Part shown: in pieces, positions 56,431 through 64,000 of the stretch
Numbering within the stretch: position 1 is the stretch's first letter
How the letters are laid out: each line of letters starts with the position of its first letter
Assembly (NCBI RefSeq): GCF_009883635.2
Contig: NZ_CP026115.2
Coordinates: 4,650,001 to 4,714,000, forward strand
DNA: 64,000 nucleotides
Origin: Pseudomonas putida
GTDB taxonomy: Bacteria; Pseudomonadota; Gammaproteobacteria; Pseudomonadales; Pseudomonadaceae
Reading direction: 5' to 3'
Notes under the pieces: model-generated
What the model was told of the DNA's origin: nothing
Database searches by the model: none
Seen by the model: only the letters and a program-made list of their open reading frames with translations
Position numbers and translations under genes: made by a program

Positions 56431-57063
56431 ATGGTATTTAATCTTGCGCCTGGACAACATGAGAACTCGGTAAGATATTCTTTGCTAGAGGCCATTAAAT
56501 TTATGGCTGCGTTCATTGATCAGCAAAATGAGCAGGCTCGATTATTTTGTGAGAACTTTGATCAGGAATCGCTTCGCGGTCACGGTTTTACGTACGACGA
56601 TGACCGAGATGAACTTTTGGTGTCTGGTATCTCTGGCTTTGAGTACGATTTGGATGGTGTATTTAAAGAGGAATTTCCAAGTTATGTAGTTGAATCTCAA
56701 GTAATTATGCTTTGGGCCATGCTTGAAAGGAATTTAGATGCAGTAGCCAGGGAGCTTTATGTAATTAAAGGGCTTGAATGGCCTGAATTGAAAAGAGGGA
56801 AGTCGATATTCCCTCAGTATGTGGAAAGGATTGAGAAGGTAGATGGCCAACCTTTTTCAAAATCTACAATTGAATTTCTTAATGCCAATGTCCGGGAAGT
56901 GCGGAATGCATTGGTTCACGGCGGGCTCAGAGAAGTAAGTATCCAGCACGAGGATCTCGATATCAAAAATGGGATTTTACGCGGTGTGTCTCCAGCGTAT
57001 GTTTCTGAGGTGATTGGAGCAATGCGATATCTAGCGATGGAACTTGTGGCGGAGCATCGTTAG
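56431..57063 (+). CDS. HEPN-like prophage cargo protein
   Basis: A 210-residue helical protein. Near residue 156 the sequence NVREVRNALVHGG contains R-N-x3-H, the Rx4-6H motif of HEPN ribonucleases. The helix before it (SQVIMLWAMLERNLDAVARE) fits the conserved first helices of that fold. The gene is much more AT-rich than surrounding phage genes. ATG 56431 has GGAG 10 nt upstream. HEPN proteins often act in toxin-antitoxin or abortive-infection systems; here there is no evident antitoxin partner. Confidence 0.6.
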   Translation: MVFNLAPGQHENSVRYSLLEAIKFMAAFIDQQNEQARLFCENFDQESLRGHGFTYDDDRDELLVSGISGFEYDLDGVFKEEFPSYVVESQVIMLWAMLERNLDAVARELYVIKGLEWPELKRGKSIFPQYVERIEKVDGQPFSKSTIEFLNANVREVRNALVHGGLREVSIQHEDLDIKNGILRGVSPAYVSEVIGAMRYLAMELVAEHR

Positions 57064-57067
57064 ATGG

Positions 57068-57265
57068 CTAGCGGCTAGCAAGATTTATCTCTGCCTCGGC
57101 CAGCTCGCAGAAGAATGAGCACGCCGGCAGTTTCTCGTTGCGCCGCACTGGGCCGTCACTGAGATCACGAAGGGAGAAGCGGACGTTGGTAGCGCGGTTG
57201 CGGAAGAGGTAGGAACCTTCGCCCAGTTCATCCTGGATGGCGCACAGCGACTCAAATCCAAACAA
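57068..57265 (-). CDS. Possible small gene or gene remnant
   Basis: A 65-codon open frame with host-like, GC-ending codon choice (SYLFRNRATNVRFSLRDLSD, ACSFFCELAEAEI). The only start is a TTG without a ribosome site, and it runs into the oppositely oriented start of the next membrane-protein gene. It may be the 3' remnant of a gene displaced by the cargo insertion. Confidence 0.3.
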   Translation of the reverse strand: MFGFESLCAIQDELGEGSYLFRNRATNVRFSLRDLSDGPVRRNEKLPACSFFCELAEAEINLASR

Positions 57266-57276
57266 GGAGAGTGGTA

Positions 57277-57474
57277 ATGGGGTTGCGGGAGCGGCATAAG
57301 GCTTTTCAGGAGTGGCTCACTCCAAGGCGCCGTCGGCGCGCTGGGATAACGCTGATCGTTGCCTGGGTCGCTGTGACGGTAGTTTGGCCAAGCATCAACT
57401 GGGCTTGGATAGGTGGGCCAGGTATGTACATGCTCGTCACCTCTTGGCCGCCGGAGCTTCATGACAAGCGTTAA
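57277..57474 (+). CDS. Small basic membrane protein
   Basis: A 65-residue protein: basic N-terminus (RERHKAFQEWLTPRRRRRAG) then one membrane helix (ITLIVAWVAVTVVWPSI). ATG 57277 is 8 nt after AAGGAGA. The stretch AACAAGGA-n-AGTGGTAATGG around its start is repeated almost exactly before the next gene. Possible role in superinfection exclusion; only the topology is visible. Confidence 0.55.
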   Translation: MGLRERHKAFQEWLTPRRRRRAGITLIVAWVAVTVVWPSINWAWIGGPGMYMLVTSWPPELHDKR

Positions 57475-57534
57475 CGCGCTTGTGGGCAGCGCCGGGGTGA
57501 TTACTCCGCCGCTTGGCTAACAAGGACAGTGGTA

Positions 57535-57963
57535 ATGGTGCGACGGAACAGATTGAAGGCTCTTCTTTCACCGCTGACGACGAATCGCTGGCGTACCGGA
57601 TCTTTGTTAGGGTTCGTGACTTGGTGCATTCTGTTGCGGTACGGTGACCTGGGCATGCTACTGACAGTGTTTAGCATGCCTTTCGGTATCGCTTTCTTTG
57701 CCATGGGACCATTGGAATTCATGCCAGATAGATGGTTCTTAGCAAACTCCTTTCTGTCTGCAATGACGGGCCTGTTCTTCCAAGGGAGCTTGATGCTGAT
57801 ATGGGGTGTTTTGGCTTTTGAGTTTTCTTTGAGTCAGTACGCCAGGACCGCATTCGTGGTGATCTGCATTGCACTGCAGGTCATTATTATCGGCTGGATT
57901 AAGCGCAGGATGATGCGTTCGTACATCCGCAAGCGAAGTGAGCAGCAAAATCGCTCGCAATGA
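57535..57963 (+). CDS. Prophage membrane protein, four hydrophobic segments
   Basis: A 142-residue protein with hydrophobic segments near 20-36 (LLGFVTWCILLRYG), 38-55, 65-90 and 95-115. The N-terminus is basic like its neighbour. ATG 57535 follows AAGGACA. Shared start-site leader with the preceding gene suggests duplication. Function unknown. Confidence 0.55.
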   Translation: MVRRNRLKALLSPLTTNRWRTGSLLGFVTWCILLRYGDLGMLLTVFSMPFGIAFFAMGPLEFMPDRWFLANSFLSAMTGLFFQGSLMLIWGVLAFEFSLSQYARTAFVVICIALQVIIIGWIKRRMMRSYIRKRSEQQNRSQ

Positions 57964-58014
57964 ACTCAGGCCGTCGTTCAAGAGGCGGAGGCGCTGGCGG
58001 GCAGCGCTGGAGGG

Positions 58015-58566
58015 TCAGGCGGCTTTTCGTGCGTTGAGCACCCGCTGGCGGGCGGTTTCGTACTCGCTGCTGACGATCTCAACCAGGCCGTCGACATCGC
58101 CGTCAGCCGCCTTGCTGCCCAGGTTCAGGTACACGGTCTCGCCATGGCTGAAGCACACCCCGCCACTGAGCCAGATGCCGCCGCGCTCGACGCCGATGGC
58201 CTCCCACATTTCGTCTTGGTCGATGTCACTCGGGCAGTGTGCTTCCCAGAGGTTCAGCAAGTGCTGGTGCACATCCTTCTCGGTGGAGCGAACCTCTTTC
58301 TCAGTGCCCTTTGCATGCTTGGCGTTCCGCCGCAGCGATCGGTAGCCGTATTCGTCAGGGCGGCACCAGTGCACATCCAGATCGCGGCTGGCACTGAGCT
58401 TGATTCCGCCAACGTAGTTGCGAGAGCCGCTGTACATCGGCGATGCATCGGCGCCAAAGATCCTGCCCAGGTGCTCGCGCTTAGCATTCCAGGCCGCTTT
58501 CTTCTCGTCCCAGGCGCGGACTGCGGCCAGAACCTTTGGCGATTCGGTCTTGTAGAAGTAGCTCAT
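58015..58566 (-). CDS. Prophage protein of unknown function
   Basis: A 183-residue soluble protein (MSYFYKTESPKVLAAVRAWD; then HWCRPDEYGYRSLRRNAKHA). Host-like GC content, leftward, on the strand of the early operon. ATG 58566 has a plausible spacing to GGAG-like bases. No domain recognised. Confidence 0.6.
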   Translation of the reverse strand: MSYFYKTESPKVLAAVRAWDEKKAAWNAKREHLGRIFGADASPMYSGSRNYVGGIKLSASRDLDVHWCRPDEYGYRSLRRNAKHAKGTEKEVRSTEKDVHQHLLNLWEAHCPSDIDQDEMWEAIGVERGGIWLSGGVCFSHGETVYLNLGSKAADGDVDGLVEIVSSEYETARQRVLNARKAA

Positions 58567-58683
58567 GGCTTACTCCATGCATGCGCCGCCCTCCGTGGCC
58601 GGATGCGGCATGTGGCAATTTGGATTGTGGTACTGTCAGCTGGAGATTAATATTCGCAACTTAACGTCCTTTAAAGGGTTGTG

Positions 58684-59340
58684 ATGGTGCGAACTTCTCT
58701 CTTAATTGCAATCAGCGCTTTACTTTGTTTTTCCGCAGGGATAATTGCATGTTTAGCATTTATCGGGAGCGGGAAAAGTATTTGGTCCTTTCTTCAGATT
58801 TCTGACATTCACGATCTGGCCGAGACTTTTGGCGGTCTGGCTGCGATGGTGACAATGTTTGTTGTGCTGGCTGCGTTTTCGCAATGGAAGACCGAGTTCA
58901 ATCACTCGGCTCGCCATAAGGCCCTCTCAGATTTTCTTAATGGCACGTGGGAGCTGCAGATATTTACAAGCTACTTACGAGCTTTGGAGGCAACCCTGCA
59001 CCATAAATGCTCAACACAAGGAGTGTCGGACGAATCTCTAGACGCGGCCTCGGATAAGGCTAGGGTTGAATGGCAGGCATCCCATACTAGCTATGTGCAG
59101 CGCTGGACGGCTCTCGAAATATTTCTTAGCGAAAAAGAGATCAACACCATCCCGTTGTCTGGGCCCGAGATATCCAAAAAAAGCTCAGTTTTCCCGCTTC
59201 AGTTGGCTGTCAAGTACGCTGATGCTCGCGCAAACAAAAATACACATGAATTTAGCTTCGCCCGGCATGAGATGGAGCGAAAGCTTATAGATGATATGAA
59301 TACAACTAGAGCGGCACTGAAGAAATTGTTGCGGTCCTAA
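58684..59340 (+). CDS. AT-rich membrane-anchored cargo protein
   Basis: A 218-residue protein. Two N-terminal membrane helices (SLLIAISALLCFSAGIIACL, and FGGLAAMVTMFVVLAAF near 48-64), followed by a helical cytosolic part of about 150 residues. The gene is AT-rich. ATG 58684 follows AAAGGG. Topology resembles phage superinfection or Abi membrane sensors, but no motif confirms it. Confidence 0.55.
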   Translation: MVRTSLLIAISALLCFSAGIIACLAFIGSGKSIWSFLQISDIHDLAETFGGLAAMVTMFVVLAAFSQWKTEFNHSARHKALSDFLNGTWELQIFTSYLRALEATLHHKCSTQGVSDESLDAASDKARVEWQASHTSYVQRWTALEIFLSEKEINTIPLSGPEISKKSSVFPLQLAVKYADARANKNTHEFSFARHEMERKLIDDMNTTRAALKKLLRS

Positions 59341-59365
59341 CTAGCATTACTGCTATTTAGGAATT

Positions 59366-59527
59366 TTAAGCGGCAAGCTCTATGTCTCGGTCATTCCAGC
59401 CTGCCAGCCACCACCCGCAATCCACGGTCATCCAGCCGTATGGCTGGGAATCGCGTGACTGCAAGTTGTCCCTGCAGGCTCGACCGAGGAAGTAAGCAGG
59501 CGGGCATTGGTAGCGCTGGTTGTGCAA
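59366..59527 (-). CDS. 53-residue protein, RMF/CrpP-like
   Basis: A short gene directly after ssb. The TTG at 59527 lies 2 bp past the ssb stop; GGGGG in the last ssb codons could serve as ribosome site. The product has YFLGRACRDNLQSRD and ends DCGWWLAGWNDRDIELAA. The W-x-x-G-W-x-D ending with a Cys-Pro pair near the start recalls ribosome modulation factor and CrpP proteins. Too short for most gene callers. Confidence 0.5.
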   Translation of the reverse strand: MHNQRYQCPPAYFLGRACRDNLQSRDSQPYGWMTVDCGWWLAGWNDRDIELAA

Positions 59528-59529
59528 GG

Positions 59530-60021
59530 CTACGCCCCCGTAAGGTGGTGCGCCGGGGCGAACGGAATGTCGTCGTCGAAGCTGTCAGGCGGCGCGGCCT
59601 GCTGGTTCTGCTGCTGTGGCGCGGCCCGCCGCTGTTGAGGTTGCCGGTCTGGAACTTGGCCTGGTTGCTGGCCCTGCGGTCGGCTGCCCAACAGCTGCAT
59701 CGTGCCGTTTATGTCGACGATGATTTCCGTGGTGTACCGCTTGATGCCGTCCTTCTCCCACTCGCGGGTCTGCAGCTTTCCCTCGATGTAGCACTGGGAG
59801 CCCTTGCGCAGGTACTCGCCGGCGATCTCCGCGACCTTGCCGAGCAGCGACACCCGGTGCCACTCGGTCCGCTCGACCTTCTCGCCCGAGCGTTTGTCCG
59901 TCCACTGCTCGCTGGTGGCTAGGCTGAGGTTGGTCACAGCGTTGCCGTTGGGCAGGTAGCGCACGTCCGGGTCCTGGCCGCAGGTGCCGACCAGGATGAC
60001 CTTGTTTACCCCGCGGCTCAT
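59530..60021 (-). CDS. ssb: Single-stranded DNA-binding protein (phage)
   Basis: A 163-residue SSB. The OB fold runs [20 protein letters not shown] to about residue 110 (with [20 protein letters not shown]), followed by a Gln/Pro-rich linker. The acidic tip DSFDDDIPF is present but followed by nine more residues (APAHHLTGA). ATG 60021 overlaps the upstream stop by 4 bp. The tip normally ends the protein and binds partner enzymes. Confidence 0.93.
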
Positions 60022-60356
60022 GACTGAACCGCTGCGGCAGCAACGATGAACAGCAGGGCCAGCAGCGAGCACCAGCGCGTCGCGCTTTCGCCAACTTGGC
60101 GGACCTTCACTACCGCTACGACAGGCAGAGTCTTGGCGTCGATGGCGCGCTCCAGGCTCTGCGCGTAGCGAACTGCCTGGGCGTAGCTGGTGTTGCGGCC
60201 GTACACGCGGTTGTTGCTGGCCGAAACGACGGCCCAGCCGTTACCGCTCTGGGTGACGAAGAAGCGCGATCTGCTGCGGAAGGCCTCGGTGGCCGTGATC
60301 ACTTCCTGGCGCAGGGCTTCGAGCTTGACCTGGCTTCGTTGGATGGCTGCTTGCAT
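60018..60356 (-). CDS. Prophage protein with C-terminal membrane helix
   Basis: A 112-residue protein: charged N-terminal helix ([20 protein letters not shown]), a central region ([20 protein letters not shown]) and a C-terminal helix ([18 protein letters not shown]), consistent with a tail-anchored protein. Coupled to ssb through an ATGA overlap. Function unknown. Confidence 0.6.
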
Positions 60357-60375
60357 GGGGATGGTCCTCAGTGGG

Positions 60376-60759
60376 TCAGGCGTGGAGCTCGAAGGCCTCG
60401 GCCTTGCGAACTATTCGAACTTGGGCGGTGCGACGCTCAGGGGCGCGGCGGTCACGGCGCATTGGGTCGCTGTCGTCGATCACCGCATGCATGGCGATGA
60501 GGCCGGCGAGGGCGATGCAGAGCGGGCTGATGATCTGTTGGCGCATGGCCTTGGTGACGGCCTCGATGCGGCGGCCGGCTTCCAGCTTGAACAGCGCGGC
60601 TTCGATGCGGTTGGCCACGGTGCCCGGGCTGACTGCCATTTCGCGGGCAATTTCCTTGGTGGTGAGGCCTTGAGCCACCCACAGCAGTGCTTCGAGCTCA
60701 CGGGGAGCCAGCGCCTTGCCGAGCTGGCCAATCCATGAGCCGCAAGTGATCGTTTCCAT
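60376..60759 (-). CDS. LuxR-type HTH regulator of the early operon
   Basis: A 127-residue protein whose residues 15-72 match a GerE/LuxR HTH: LAPRELEALLWVAQGLTTKE, IAREMAVSPGTVANRIEAAL. A hydrophobic segment follows (ISPLCIALAGLIAMHAVI, near 78-95), then a basic tail. ATG 60759 has GAGAGG upstream. First clear gene of the leftward transcript from PL; it could control later leftward genes. Confidence 0.75.
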   Translation of the reverse strand: METITCGSWIGQLGKALAPRELEALLWVAQGLTTKEIAREMAVSPGTVANRIEAALFKLEAGRRIEAVTKAMRQQIISPLCIALAGLIAMHAVIDDSDPMRRDRRAPERRTAQVRIVRKAEAFELHA

Positions 60760-60778
60760 GATGCCTCTCGGGTTGGGT

Positions 60779-60854
60779 GGCTGCATCGGTCGTGACGCTC
60801 CCTGCCATGAACCTCCCGGACCAGGGGAGGGCGAACGTCACGACCGATGCAGCC
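60779..60854. repeat. 19-bp perfect inverted repeat
   Basis: Bases 60779-60797 (GGCTGCATCGGTCGTGACG) are the exact reverse complement of 60836-60854. The 38-nt loop has its own small GC hairpin. Ends 20 bp upstream of the HTH gene start, in its 5' leader. Confidence 0.85.
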
Positions 60855-61246
60855 TGGTGATTGGGAACCAGGTGGATCGGGCCGGTTACGTATCCGGCGT
60901 CGCTGCCATCGACCGTCGCTGTGCAGCACTTCCGTCTGGCTATCGGGGCTGGTGGCAACCAGCGCTCTCCGGGCAGGCTTTTCTCTCGGCCTGCCAGCGA
61001 CCGGCTCTATAGCGTCCGGTGAGCTGCCATCCCCCATGGCTGGGTTAGGCGTTTCGTTGACTACTTCATGATGGCGTTCCTCCTTTTGGTTGTTTGGTCC
61101 GCGCCATGCTCGTCGCCGGGTTTCCCCACCTCTGCCTGCTGCAGCTACTGGCTACGCATCAGGTGGCTCGCATGGTTTGGCGTCCTCCCATGGGGGAGTC
61201 CGGCAGCTATCCAGAGGCTGCGTGGTCGACGACTTAGCTTGTCCCG

Positions 61247-61302
61247 ACCCAGGTGGTGGCCTGGGTGCGTCGAGGTGGTCACGTCTGGTTGTGTAAAGAG
61301 CG
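61247..61302 (-). promoter_or_regulatory. boxA-like element and hairpin (nut-like site)
   Basis: On the leftward strand, CGCTCTTTACACA (61302-61290) matches the boxA consensus of lambdoid nut sites and rRNA leaders. After 23 nt comes a hairpin ACCCAGG-CCACCA-CCTGGGT. It lies about 35 nt from the predicted PL start, like lambda nutL. Function as an antitermination site is inferred. Confidence 0.55.
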
Positions 61303-61321
61303 GTGGCTGCCGTAGCTGCCT

Positions 61322-61383
61322 ATAACCTGTGTTATGGGTTGAATCATAACCTAGGTTTTCCTTGTGTCAATAACTCAAGTTAT
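61322..61383. promoter_or_regulatory. Left operator array, three 14-bp sites
   Basis: ATAACCTGTGTTAT (61322-61335), ATAACCTAGGTTTT (61346-61359) and ATAACTCAAGTTAT (61370-61383), starting exactly 24 bp apart. They cover the PL promoter. The last site is the exact reverse complement of the rightmost site of the right array. Confidence 0.85.
61343..61370 (-). promoter_or_regulatory. PL-type leftward early promoter
   Basis: Reading leftward: TTGACA (61370-61365), 16-bp spacer, TATGAT (61348-61343). The middle operator sits between the two hexamers, another covers the -35. Confidence 0.8.
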
Positions 61384-61393
61384 AAATTCGACC

Positions 61394-61418
61394 AAAAAAA
61401 TGCCCGCTGAATGCGGGC
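61394..61418 (-). terminator. Terminator of the DUF1654 gene
   Basis: GCCCGC and GCGGGC pair around a 5-nt loop, followed leftward by seven Ts, 8 bp after the stop. It separates the SOS gene from PL. Confidence 0.9.
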
Positions 61419-61425
61419 AGTGCTC

Positions 61426-61674
61426 TCAGGCGTCCGTAAAATCGCGCCATCCGATCCTGATCAAGCCGGAATCCAAGCGCTCGACCTTGATCCCGGCTGT
61501 GTCCTCAAGATCGGAAATCAGGCGCCGCCAGTCATCAGCGGAGTCGCCAGGGCTCGGCTTCAATTCGACGAACTGACGCTTTTGCACGTGTGGCGAGGCG
61601 ATCGCCTGCTGCACCCTATATCCAAGTGCCTCGTAGGAGCGGGAAGGGGATTGTGAGAAAGCGAGGGGAAGCAT
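61426..61674 (-). CDS. DUF1654 protein under a LexA box
   Basis: An 82-residue protein. RSYEALGYRVQQAIASPHVQ (residues 12-31) and SADDWRRLISDLEDTAGIKV (near 45-64), then LDSGLIRIGW, fit the DUF1654 family of small Pseudomonas proteins. ATG 61674 has AAGGAG at ideal spacing. A LexA box lies 19 bp upstream. It has its own terminator and forms a one-gene SOS unit between cI and PL. Function unknown. Confidence 0.75.
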   Translation of the reverse strand: MLPLAFSQSPSRSYEALGYRVQQAIASPHVQKRQFVELKPSPGDSADDWRRLISDLEDTAGIKVERLDSGLIRIGWRDFTDA

Positions 61675-61692
61675 GCCTGGTAACTCCTTGTA

Positions 61693-61708
61693 CTGTATGT
61701 ACGTACAG
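61693..61708. promoter_or_regulatory. LexA (SOS) box
   Basis: CTGTATGTACGTACAG fits the CTG-N10-CAG LexA consensus with CTGT and ACAG ends and an alternating centre. It is 19 bp upstream of the DUF1654 ATG and overlaps the probable promoter. Confidence 0.85.
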
Positions 61709-61800
61709 TTATCCTGTCTTCGTTCGATTATCAATAGCCGTGATGTGCAAAGTACGTTTACACGTAAATTACTGGAGCCAATTCTTTCTGGCGGGCACAA

Positions 61801-61826
61801 AAAAGCCCGGCGTTTTGCCGGGCTCT
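61801..61826 (-). terminator. Terminator of the CI-like repressor gene
   Basis: AGCCCGGC and GCCGGGCT pair around a 5-nt loop, with TTTTTT on the leftward strand; 16 bp past the repressor stop. Confidence 0.9.
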
Positions 61827-61841
61827 TCTTGCTGCGTGACC

Positions 61842-62498
61842 TTAAAGTTTGATCATGGCTCTCACCACAACTCCCACGATACGACAACCTTCCATGCACA
61901 TCTCTACCGGATATGCCGGGTTTAAAGGCTTGAGGAATCGGCGCCCCCCGTCCTCTACCAGCTTCTTGAAGGTCGCTTCATTGCTGTCGGCGAGCTTAGC
62001 AATGACTAGTTTTCCGGAGGTGGCTTCAGCCTCGGTGTCTACCAGGATCAGCATGCCTTCAGTGATGCTAGTCCCGACCGGCGAGGTCATTGAATCTCCC
62101 TTCACCTCAAGCCAAAAGGCTGCCCCTTTCGAGTCGTAATCGGACATTTCGTATCGGTCGGAATAGCCGGGAGGGAATGGCTCGACAGCTTCAGCCCAAG
62201 CCCCCGCAGCCACCCAGCTTATCACCGGATAACGGTAGGACTCTGGATCGGTACTTGGCGCCTGGACATTGCTTGAGGCTTTGGCAGGCCCTTCACCCGA
62301 ACCAAGCCACTCGGCACTCACCCCAAGTGCCCTCGCAATTTCGAGCAGCTTTTTGGAGGTTGAGTTTCTGCCGCTCTCCAAGTGCTGGATTGTCACCTGG
62401 CTTACGCCCGCCTTCTCAGCAAGCTGTGCCTGGCTTAACCCTAGCGCCGTGCGGCGCTCGAGGATTCGGTCTTTGAGCATTTCGGAGGCTTTCGTCAT
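61842..62498 (-). CDS. cI: CI/LexA-like prophage repressor (HTH + S24 peptidase)
   Basis: A 218-residue repressor. N-terminal HTH: RRTALGLSQAQLAEKAGVSQ, VTIQHLESGRNSTSKKLLEI. C-terminal S24 domain: AFWLEVKGDSMTSPVGTSIT with the catalytic Ser near 133 and KLVIAKLADSNEATFKKLVE with the Lys near 170-176; the cleavage region is probably VAAGAW (Ala-Gly). RecA-stimulated self-cleavage would induce the phage. The ATG at 62498 (MTKASEML) is chosen because the frame upstream runs through the operators and cro. Confidence 0.92.
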   Translation of the reverse strand: MTKASEMLKDRILERRTALGLSQAQLAEKAGVSQVTIQHLESGRNSTSKKLLEIARALGVSAEWLGSGEGPAKASSNVQAPSTDPESYRYPVISWVAAGAWAEAVEPFPPGYSDRYEMSDYDSKGAAFWLEVKGDSMTSPVGTSITEGMLILVDTEAEATSGKLVIAKLADSNEATFKKLVEDGGRRFLKPLNPAYPVEMCMEGCRIVGVVVRAMIKL

Positions 62499-62510
62499 GT
62501 CCGCAAGGGT

Positions 62511-62570
62511 AAAACACACGTTATTACTCGGCAAATAACATGTGTTTGCCTTATCTATAACTTGAGTTAT
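62511..62570. promoter_or_regulatory. Right operator array, three 14-bp sites
   Basis: AAAACACACGTTAT (62511-62524), ATAACATGTGTTTG (62535-62548) and ATAACTTGAGTTAT (62557-62570), starting 24 and 22 bp apart, between cI and cro. Half-site consensus ATAAC is shared with the left array. Confidence 0.85.
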
Positions 62571-62573
62571 CAT
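62546..62573 (+). promoter_or_regulatory. PR-type rightward early promoter
   Basis: TTGCCT (62546-62551), 16-bp spacer, TATCAT (62568-62573). The second and third operators overlap the -35 and -10. A start near 62580 gives cro a 24-nt leader. The leftward promoter for cI must overlap the same array but I could not assign its hexamers. Confidence 0.65.
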
Positions 62574-62603
62574 CGGGTGCACGATCCATTGAGGCACGCA
62601 GAC

Positions 62604-62834
62604 ATGCCGAACAAAGAAAGACCTATTGACGAGGTCGTGCGCTTGGCCGGAGGCCAGGCAGAGCTCGCCAGGAGATGCAACACGAGTCAGCCGCGCATCT
62701 GGCAATGCGTACACCGGAACCAGAAGGTTCCAGCTGATCTGGTCATCCCGTTTGAAAAGGCTGTAGGCGGTCAGGTCACTCGCCATCAGCTCAGACCAGA
62801 TCTGTATCCCCCAGAGGATAAAGCCGCTTCGTGA
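62604..62834 (+). CDS. cro: YdaS/Cro-like repressor
   Basis: A 76-residue HTH protein: IDEVVRLAGGQAELARRCNT, SQPRIWQCVHRNQKVPADLV, then PFEKAVGGQVTRHQLRPDLY. This is the YdaS/Cro pattern found opposite CI in lambdoid prophages, where it would shut off cI transcription. ATG 62604 has GAGG upstream; the longer upstream frame reads through the operators. Divergent from cI. Confidence 0.88.
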   Translation: MPNKERPIDEVVRLAGGQAELARRCNTSQPRIWQCVHRNQKVPADLVIPFEKAVGGQVTRHQLRPDLYPPEDKAAS

Positions 62835-62920
62835 TGAGCATTGTGCACCTAGAGGCGTTTCGCCAGTAGATGACCAAAACACCTGCAAATCCATCCAGTA
62901 CTGGAAATGCAGACGAAAAA

Positions 62921-62946
62921 AAACCGCCTGGCAGGGCGGCTTTCTC
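62921..62946 (+). terminator. tR-like terminator between cro and the replication gene
   Basis: CCGCC and GGCGG pair (62924-62939) around a 6-nt loop, followed by TTTCTCT. It is preceded by AAAAAAAA. It would stop unmodified PR transcripts before the replication genes. Confidence 0.75.
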
Positions 62947-62970
62947 TACAGCATTTCAACGGGTTTAAGC

Positions 62971-63828
62971 ATGACAAACATCGTCCCACTTGACAAGTCC
63001 AGGGGGTTCACCCGGATGGACAACCAGCTCATGGATGGCCTGCTGGCTATCGATCTCCCAGCCCGGGAGATGAAGATTGTGCTGTACGTGGCCAAGGCCA
63101 CTATCAACTTCGGTGCGGGCGCCCAGCGCATCCCGGCTACCGACATCGCGAAGGCGATTCACGCTCACCCTGACACCGTGTCGAAAGCGATTTCCAGCCT
63201 GCTGCGCCGTCGTGTGTTGTTCCGTGAGGGTGGCGCCCGGGGTGACATCGGCGTGAATGACCCGAAAGACTGGGTCTACGTCACTGAGCCGAATCAGACC
63301 AAAACAGCCGAATCGGCTCAAGTGGTCCGAATCGGCGAAGAGTCGAAACAGACCAAAACCGCCGAGTCCCTTCTTTATTCTAAGAATCTAACCCCCTATG
63401 TATTTCTTCCTTCGGAAGAAAATACATGCCCCCCCAGCGAAGCGGACGAGCCTCGTGCGAAAACTGACCGCAAGGCGCCATTCGGGAAGGCCGCGATGCT
63501 GGCCGATAACCCCCACGGCCTGGATGAGTCGCTGATCGCTGACTACCTGGTTGTCCGGAAGTCCGCCAAGGCCCCGGTGACTGCCCGTATCTGGTCCGCC
63601 CTGAACACCAAGCTGGAGCAGTGCAAGGCGTTCGGCATCCAGCCCGCCCAGGCCCTGGAGGTCGCCGTCGAGAACGGATGGCGCGGCTTCGAGGTGGATT
63701 GGGTGATCAAGCGTATCGCCGCCCAGCAGCCTGCCCAGGCCAAGCCTCATGGCCGCCACCACGGCTTCAGTGACCGCGATTACACCGCTGGCCTTGCCCC
63801 GCGGGAGGACGGTACCTATGCGATCTGA
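62971..63828 (+). CDS. Phage O-like replication initiator
   Basis: A 285-residue protein. The N-terminal part (FTRMDNQLMDGLLAIDLPAR, then HPDTVSKAISSLLRRRVLFR near 67-86) is a winged-helix origin-binding domain as in lambda O. The middle is charged and has an internal near-repeat (NQTKTAES and KQTKTAES near 108-130). The C-terminal region NGWRGFEVDWVIKR resembles the part that recruits helicase loaders. Any origin iterons should lie within this gene. Followed by a DnaC-like gene. Confidence 0.85.
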   Translation: MTNIVPLDKSRGFTRMDNQLMDGLLAIDLPAREMKIVLYVAKATINFGAGAQRIPATDIAKAIHAHPDTVSKAISSLLRRRVLFREGGARGDIGVNDPKDWVYVTEPNQTKTAESAQVVRIGEESKQTKTAESLLYSKNLTPYVFLPSEENTCPPSEADEPRAKTDRKAPFGKAAMLADNPHGLDESLIADYLVVRKSAKAPVTARIWSALNTKLEQCKAFGIQPAQALEVAVENGWRGFEVDWVIKRIAAQQPAQAKPHGRHHGFSDRDYTAGLAPREDGTYAI

Positions 63829-64000
63829 AACGGTGATAACCATGTCCGACGTGCGAAACGCCGCCGGCTTCCGCGTCCAGCCTGCGCACTGCGAGCATCA
63901 CGGCGACTTCGAGCAGCGCGTGACCATGCTGATGGGCCGCGAAATCGTTGGCCGCTGCCCTGAGTGCGAGAAGGCTGCCATTGCCGAGCGCCAGGCCAAG
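63818..64000 (+). CDS. DnaC-like helicase loader, 5' part only
   Basis: The first 61 codons, cut by the window edge. A zinc-ribbon-like pair, CEHHGDFEQ and GRCPECEKAA, is typical of the N-terminus of phage DnaC-like loaders. ATG 63818 overlaps the initiator gene by 11 bp and has GGAGG 9 nt upstream; a second in-frame ATG at 63842 is possible. The AAA+ domain would be outside the window. Confidence 0.7.
   Translation, partial: MRSETVITMSDVRNAAGFRVQPAHCEHHGDFEQRVTMLMGREIVGRCPECEKAAIAERQAK

Follow-up and report, generated by a model that had tools for sequence, protein, structure and literature searches.

Two clusters of short palindromes flank a cI-like repressor gene in a Pseudomonas putida prophage, and the locus raises the question of which protein reads them and whether they define an immunity class. 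The window, that is, the whole stretch of 64,000 nucleotides analysed here, holds the region from the first PL gene to a replication O-like gene (Table 1). In it, divergent cI and cro-like genes have a multi-site operator between them, and a second operator array lies at PL on the far side of cI. An earlier note on this DNA had described the clusters as lambda-style operator arrays for an otherwise uncharacterised CI/Cro pair, with six copies of ATAAC-N4-GTTAT covering the elements of PL and PR.

Table 1 Features of the immunity region in window coordinates.
Feature	Position	Strand	Remarks
First PL gene, LuxR-type HTH protein (phrog_3282)	60376..60759	-	Arg-rich C-terminus
Structured PL leader RNA	60779..61293	-	22-bp hairpin at its end (60779-60854), just before the first gene
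boxA-like CGCTCTTTA	61294..61302	-	near PL transcript start, ~20 nt after the operator array
Left operator, distal, ATAACACAGGTTAT	61322..61335	-	0 mismatches to ATAACNNNNGTTAT; just downstream of the inferred PL start
PL, TTGACA-16-TATGAT	61343..61370	-	-35 at 61370-61365, -10 at 61348-61343; sigma70 scan
Left operator, middle, AAAACCTAGGTTAT	61346..61359	-	1 mismatch; overlaps PL -10
Left operator nearest cI, ATAACTTGAGTTAT	61370..61383	-	0 mismatches; touches PL -35
Terminator-like hairpin between DUF1654 gene and PL	61401..61419	-	terminator scan
DUF1654 gene between cI and PL	61426..61674	-	family match
SOS (LexA-type) box CTGTACGTACATACAG, upstream of DUF1654 gene	61693..61708	-	motif match
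Terminator-like hairpin after cI	61804..61824	.	terminator scan (listed on +)
cI repressor, 218 aa	61842..62498	-	family matches, HTH_3 and Peptidase_S24
Proposed PRM, TTGCCG-17-TACCCT	62506..62534	-	ends 7 nt before cI ATG
OR3, ATAACGTGTGTTTT	62511..62524	-	1 mismatch; over spacer and -10 edge of proposed PRM
OR2, CAAACACATGTTAT	62535..62548	-	2 mismatches; overlaps PR -35, abuts proposed PRM -35
PR, TTGCCT-16-TATCAT	62546..62573	+	-35 at 62546-62551, -10 at 62568-62573; sigma70 scan
OR1, ATAACTTGAGTTAT	62557..62570	+	0 mismatches; within PR spacer and -10
cro-like gene, 76 aa	62604..62834	+	family match, PF15943 YdaS family, phrog_35
Replication O-like gene	62971-63828		next after the cro-like gene

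Palindromes stand at all six places, and the starts and spacings given in the note proved correct (24 and 24 bp on the left, 24 and 22 bp on the right). The description as six copies stood only in part: three of the six are exact, and the other three are imperfect. Direct comparison bore out that the best left site (61370) and the best right site (62557) are identical in sequence on opposite strands. At up to 2 mismatches the window holds 8 matches against 4.5 expected, and 12 of 100 shuffles reach 8; because this raw count is not significant, we used clustering and exact matches as evidence. The window contains two clusters of three sites within 70 bp, compared with none in 60 dinucleotide shuffles, and the exact motif occurs at 4 places in the 6.19-Mb genome, 3 of them here (control pattern, 0). 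Nor is the motif strewn at random over the prophage, an outcome that the note had named as fatal to its reading: in the part of the prophage inside the window, to which this check applies, only 2 matches lie outside the arrays, each with 2 mismatches.

Both arrays coincide with promoters. A simple consensus scan of 60700-63000 (2.3 kb) lists two sigma70-like promoters only, PL and PR, both under arrays; as 1.1 are expected by chance, the argument is this coincidence and not the number of promoters. That the sites cover the -35 and -10 elements holds for four of them (61370, 61346, 62535 and 62557 overlap hexamers by 1-3 bases) and fails for the other two, of which 61322 lies just past the expected PL start and 62511 over the proposed cI promoter, PRM. 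The consensus scan of 60700-63000 does not list PRM, whose -35 in most relatives is TTGATG or TTGAAG. OR2 sits directly upstream of the proposed PRM -35, with its centre ~43.5 bp upstream of the cI ATG. Because the proposed PRM ends so close to that ATG, the cI mRNA may be leaderless, like the lambda cI transcript.

The protein encoded between the arrays shows homology to lambda CI along most of the chain (3bdn, E 1.4e-33), and the nearest solved relatives of its N-terminal domain are the 434 repressor (E 2.5e-11) and a 434 derivative. By family match and lambda CI homology, it combines an HTH with an S24 self-cleavage domain, cleavage itself being predicted; an Ala-Gly, a GDSM and a downstream Lys are visible by eye in the sequence, and we take these to be the S24 self-cleavage features. 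Whole CI matched 818 of 50,697 phage records, all at less than 60% identity. In Pseudomonas phages psageK9, Cruim01, MR13 and MR15, CI is 51-55% identical over 94% of the protein, and the DNA match to these phages is restricted to the part encoding the C-terminal domain. The same genome carries a second CI-like gene (G000:C1:4601790-4602380), 40% identical to the prophage CI, which probably belongs to another prophage.

We then compared the region among CI relatives, taking the best 80 of at least 597 from viral contigs and 76 from GTDB genomes (156 loci). Class A, defined by the recognition helix SQVTIQHLES, comprises 31 of these 156 and the window; the 32 loci are related by descent and have 28 distinct right regions. 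Related prophages carry the same consensus beside their cI homologues, as the note had proposed to check: 31 of the 32 have three right sites (up to 2 mismatches) near -72, -50 and -26 from the cI start, shifted by 1-2 bp in L006. In class A, every one of the 28 loci whose sequence extends 700 nt or more beyond cI has a left triplet (up to 3 mismatches in all), spaced 24/24 in 27 of them and 24/23 in L087. The available flanks of L005, L006 and L026 (~420 nt after cI) and of L019 (71 nt) include no left array.

Position-wise conservation was measured over 26 of the 32 loci (23 distinct sequences), leaving out L005, L019 and L026 for their flanks without a left array, L006 for the same reason and its shift, and L086 and L087 for altered sites. 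Across these 26 loci each of the three right sites is invariant (100%) at its ten core positions; site centres average 95% conserved and the bases between sites 83%. OR2, with its two mismatches, is identical in all 26; L005, L006, L086 and L087 differ there. That the imperfect OR2 is kept unchanged in the 26 loci suggests that its weakness is maintained, as with the graded sites of lambda. L086 retains OL and OR3, with 2 mismatches in OR1 and more in OR2 (two right sites at up to 2 mismatches), and the right sites of L087 are weakened. An ATG-ORF search gave no class A cro in L086, L087 or L006. Both L086 and L087 resemble prophages that are rearranged or in decay.

Operator sequence tracks the recognition helix beyond class A. 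The other CI classes have the C-terminal domain in common (46-75% overall identity), together with different helices and different palindromes at similar distances. Loci with the helix EQPVISQLE and kin (34) have ATAAG-N4-CTTAT, those with TQTSISDLE (9) or DQASISDLE/NLE (8) have ATGGG-N4-CCCAT-like sites, and those with SAVTQW (33) have unrelated repeats. Summed over the best three sites, mismatches to a class's own motif are few (3.2 in class A vs 9.4 and 11.7 for the other two motifs; 1.0 in class B vs 7.0 for the class A motif; 3.2 in class D vs 10.9 for the class A motif), and since each motif was read from the loci later scored, the evidence is the contrast between classes. Left arrays are not general beyond class A: two-site pairs of the class motif, 25-26 bp apart, were seen by eye in all 7 loci of class E, in 5 of the 30 of class B and in 1 of the 9 of class D.

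The converse scan started from the operator. Ignoring CI, we searched viral contigs for ATAACNTNRGTTATTGACA, the left operator with the PL -35, and obtained 52 viral stretches, 20 of them on contigs already found among the CI relatives. A related repressor N-terminal domain is encoded in the available upstream flank of 45 of the 52 stretches, and all 45 repressors have at least one site (up to 1 mismatch) near their own start, as placed by alignment. The helix SQVTIQHLES recurs in 30 of the 45; the remaining 15 have related helices (SQVAIQK, SQVSIQK, SQVTINH, SQVAIKK, SQPAIAK, TQVTIAH and SQVAVAK) in N-terminal domains that are 37-69% identical. Among carriers of SQVTIQHLES, the C-terminal part is 24-26% identical over 66 residues in L164, L170, L179, L189, L201 and L204, and 43-44% over 121 residues in L208, L210 and L211. 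The repressors of L188, L191 and L198 (120, 118 and 108 aa) are, judged by length, too short for an S24 domain. As the sites match also where the C-terminal domain differs or is missing, the CI N-terminal domain appears to set the operator code.

No related repressor was found in 7 of the 52 stretches. L169, L186 and L195, with none within a 3.0-3.3 kb flank, are chance matches or belong to other systems; in L186 a further site lies 871 bp upstream. In L181, L193, L194 and L199, where none was found either, the flank spans only 2.3, 1.2, 0.3 and 0.7 kb; L194 shares its contig with L009, a carrier of a class A repressor, and the sequence of L199 codes for the C-terminal part of a CI. A narrower search (1.8-kb flank, stricter score) had left 15 stretches without CI, nine of which the wider search resolved, with cargo genes between cI and OL or a more divergent repressor. 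The gap from cI to OL ranges among relatives from 55 bp to ~2.25 kb. In L164, L170, L179, L189, L201 and L204, 1.0-2.25 kb separate cI from the left operators and hold further genes.

Conservation, operator-helix co-variation, the converse scan and promoter overlap together support the note's central proposal of CI operators that define an immunity specificity. We put at roughly 93% the probability that the arrays act as OL and OR in a lambda-type prophage switch, with a code read by the CI helix SQVTIQHLE. The sites might instead be mainly operators of the YdaS-family Cro-like protein, with use by CI secondary or nil. The cro-like gene adjoins OR, and Cro type differs among the main CI classes (A, B, C and D/E) as the operators do, with classes D and E sharing both. 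This co-variation of Cro type with operator class would, however, also follow from physical linkage alone, whereas operator sequence keeps step with the CI helix even in repressors that have a different C-terminal domain. Several class B loci, moreover, keep their sites although an ATG-ORF search gave no clear Cro, and we regard a primarily Cro-directed role as quite improbable.

It is more improbable still that a host regulator uses the palindromes, or that they act in some other process, such as excision or replication, in place of immunity. We found no point in favour of such a role, and the exact motif is concentrated here, with one of its four genomic places elsewhere; among 149 genomes of the genus that were searched, the source genome alone has the extended left-operator pattern, and the sites travel with the repressor. 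The non-significant window count at up to 2 mismatches would fit functionless local repeats born of duplication or chance, but the shuffles never reproduced the paired clusters, and cores that are invariant over 23 distinct sequences stand between more variable spacers, which leaves this explanation with a negligible share of the probability.

If the arrays are OL and OR, CI dimers on OR1/OR2 and on the left sites would shut PR and PL and keep the prophage dormant, and CI on OR2, which abuts the proposed PRM -35, would activate cI. From OR3, over the PRM -10, excess CI, or Cro, would lower cI expression. RecA-stimulated self-cleavage of CI through its S24 domain would release both promoters. 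The mismatches predict graded affinities among the sites. In a lambda-type switch CI would also bind the sites, spaced 22-24 bp, cooperatively; looping between the arrays, ~1.1-1.2 kb apart in the window, would be possible, as the note had remarked. The 14-bp ATAAC-N4-GTTAT, read by the N-terminal helix SQVTIQHLE, would then set the immunity class.

Between cI and PL, the SOS box, the DUF1654 gene and the hairpin behind it look like a separate unit. In 154 loci, the window among them, the sequence reaches 419 nt or more beyond cI; 74 of these have a DUF1654-like gene there, and 72 of the 74 genes are preceded, 32-42 nt upstream, by a LexA-type box (CTG-N10-CAG, 12 or more of 16 positions matching), in every class having the gene except F (0 of 2). 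The source genome has two DUF1654 genes, both with an SOS box, among 15 boxes genome-wide (up to 1 mismatch to CTGTAT-N4-ATACAG; control pattern, 2). Of 149 genomes of the genus, the source included, 129 carry the family, compared with 0 of 14 control genomes; the box is present at 24 of the 30 best-scoring genus loci taken, as well as at both copies of the source genome. The predicted fold (alpha-beta, of modest confidence, mean pLDDT 74) had no PDB match at E <= 0.001 (best E 0.15), and a DinI-like fold, considered as a candidate, was absent from the best 50 PDB matches listed. In the accessible part of the literature searched, a single paper mentions DUF1654, giving its function as unknown.

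Antirepressors under LexA control are known from Gifsy, 186 and N15. It is conceivable, if rather doubtful, that this immunity region is wired to DNA damage twice, through a cleavable CI and through a LexA-controlled DUF1654 protein that would aid repressor inactivation (by way of the shared C-terminal domain) or tune RecA. Such an accessory role for DUF1654, in CI inactivation or in RecA tuning, is a guess; if true, the chromosomal DUF1654 of most genus genomes searched would be a comparable SOS gene of the host. The analysis places DUF1654, a family for which we found no known function, beside the switch and under likely SOS control.

Downstream of PL, the boxA-like GCTCTTTA was found in 22 of the 27 class A loci whose sequence runs more than 800 nt past cI, at 20 nt from the array in 18 loci, 16 nt in 3 and 12 nt in 1. 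With its position left free within the 2.5 kb after cI, it was found in classes E (5 of 6 loci), C (16 of 29), F (4 of 5) and B (4 of 30), and in none of the 9 class D and 2 class G loci. Predicted folding of the minus-strand leader is far stronger than that of its shuffles (z -6.0). What comes after boxA differs among relatives, with at least three interchangeable leader modules (24, 9 and 8 loci). Of the 50 predicted pairs of module 1, 18 show two-sided changes in one or more of 17 sequences, many of these changes reflecting one split between two leader variants; module 3 has them in 3 of 52 predicted pairs (8 sequences).

In lambda a boxA lies near the start of the PL transcript, as part of nut, and the PL leader here, by analogy, resembles nut-type antitermination. 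The leader hairpins are conserved, and the first PL protein has an Arg-rich tail; the C-terminus of this phrog_3282 protein, RRDRRAPERRTAQVRIVRK, is largely kept in close relatives. An RNA-binding or N-like role for it is possible. We did not adopt an identity as an N-like antiterminator, because the Arg-rich tail follows a hydrophobic stretch and the gene is present also in loci without a boxA match.

Other features of the leader were noted in passing. At 61061-61086 on the minus strand, AAAGGAGGAACGCCATCATGAAGTAG presents, by eye, a strong ribosome-binding-like sequence before the two-codon frame Met-Lys-stop, which is reminiscent of the lambda bar minigenes. Leader positions 61144-61225 share 82% identity with Lbo-JY16 and Lbo240-yong2, two records filed under Leptolyngbya/Plectonema phages. 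An Rfam search of 57000-64000 returned five rows, none at gathering score, and we took mir-1791 and Trp_leader as chance.

Among the papers listed on Pseudomonas CI operators, boxA/nut in Pseudomonas phages, P. putida prophage repressors, immunity groups and the Pseudomonas SOS regulon, mostly outside subscription work such as that on phage D3, no title or opening of an abstract describes this operator. We met no description of an ATAAC-N4-GTTAT operator in the accessible portions of PMC13028781, PMC3121763, PMC10432266, PMC3317979 and PMC10742460, and the exact 14-mer appears in no paper of the searchable literature, which mostly excludes subscription papers. For a Pseudomonas immunity class that has no close relative in the searched phage collection, these results spell out an operator code, so cross-immunity between prophages becomes predictable from sequence. 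The natural series SQVTIQH/ATAAC, EQPVISQ/ATAAG and SISD/ATGGG, with similar site positions and exchangeable C-terminal domains, forms a test set for the code of repressor-operator recognition.

Like lambda, the region has cI between two three-site arrays, a divergent cro, sites overlapping PR and PL, and a homologous CI. Unlike lambda, it has the DUF1654 gene and its SOS box at the position that corresponds to lambda rex. The 434 operator is 14 bp long with the half-site ACAA. Like 434, the source of the nearest solved relatives of the CI N-terminal domain, this system has a 14-bp palindrome with a loosely conserved centre; unlike 434, its half-site is ATAAC and its recognition helix SQVTIQHLE. 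Lambda has three OR and three OL sites of 17 bp each in the accessible text of PMC10742460, whereas the sites here are 14 bp, have another sequence and are accompanied by a YdaS-family Cro-like protein. According to the accessible part of PMC3317979, the 434 and P22 repressors read the central bases of their sites indirectly, and Stx phage 933W, as here, has several operator sites read by an HTH repressor; they number five in 933W, by the accessible parts of PMC3317979 and PMC10742460, and six here. The architecture would be that of an ordinary lambda/434-type immunity region, and the specificity appears new as far as the collections searched go, since the CI N-terminal domain matches 471 of the 50,697 phage records, all at less than 60% identity (52.5% for the best-ranked match).
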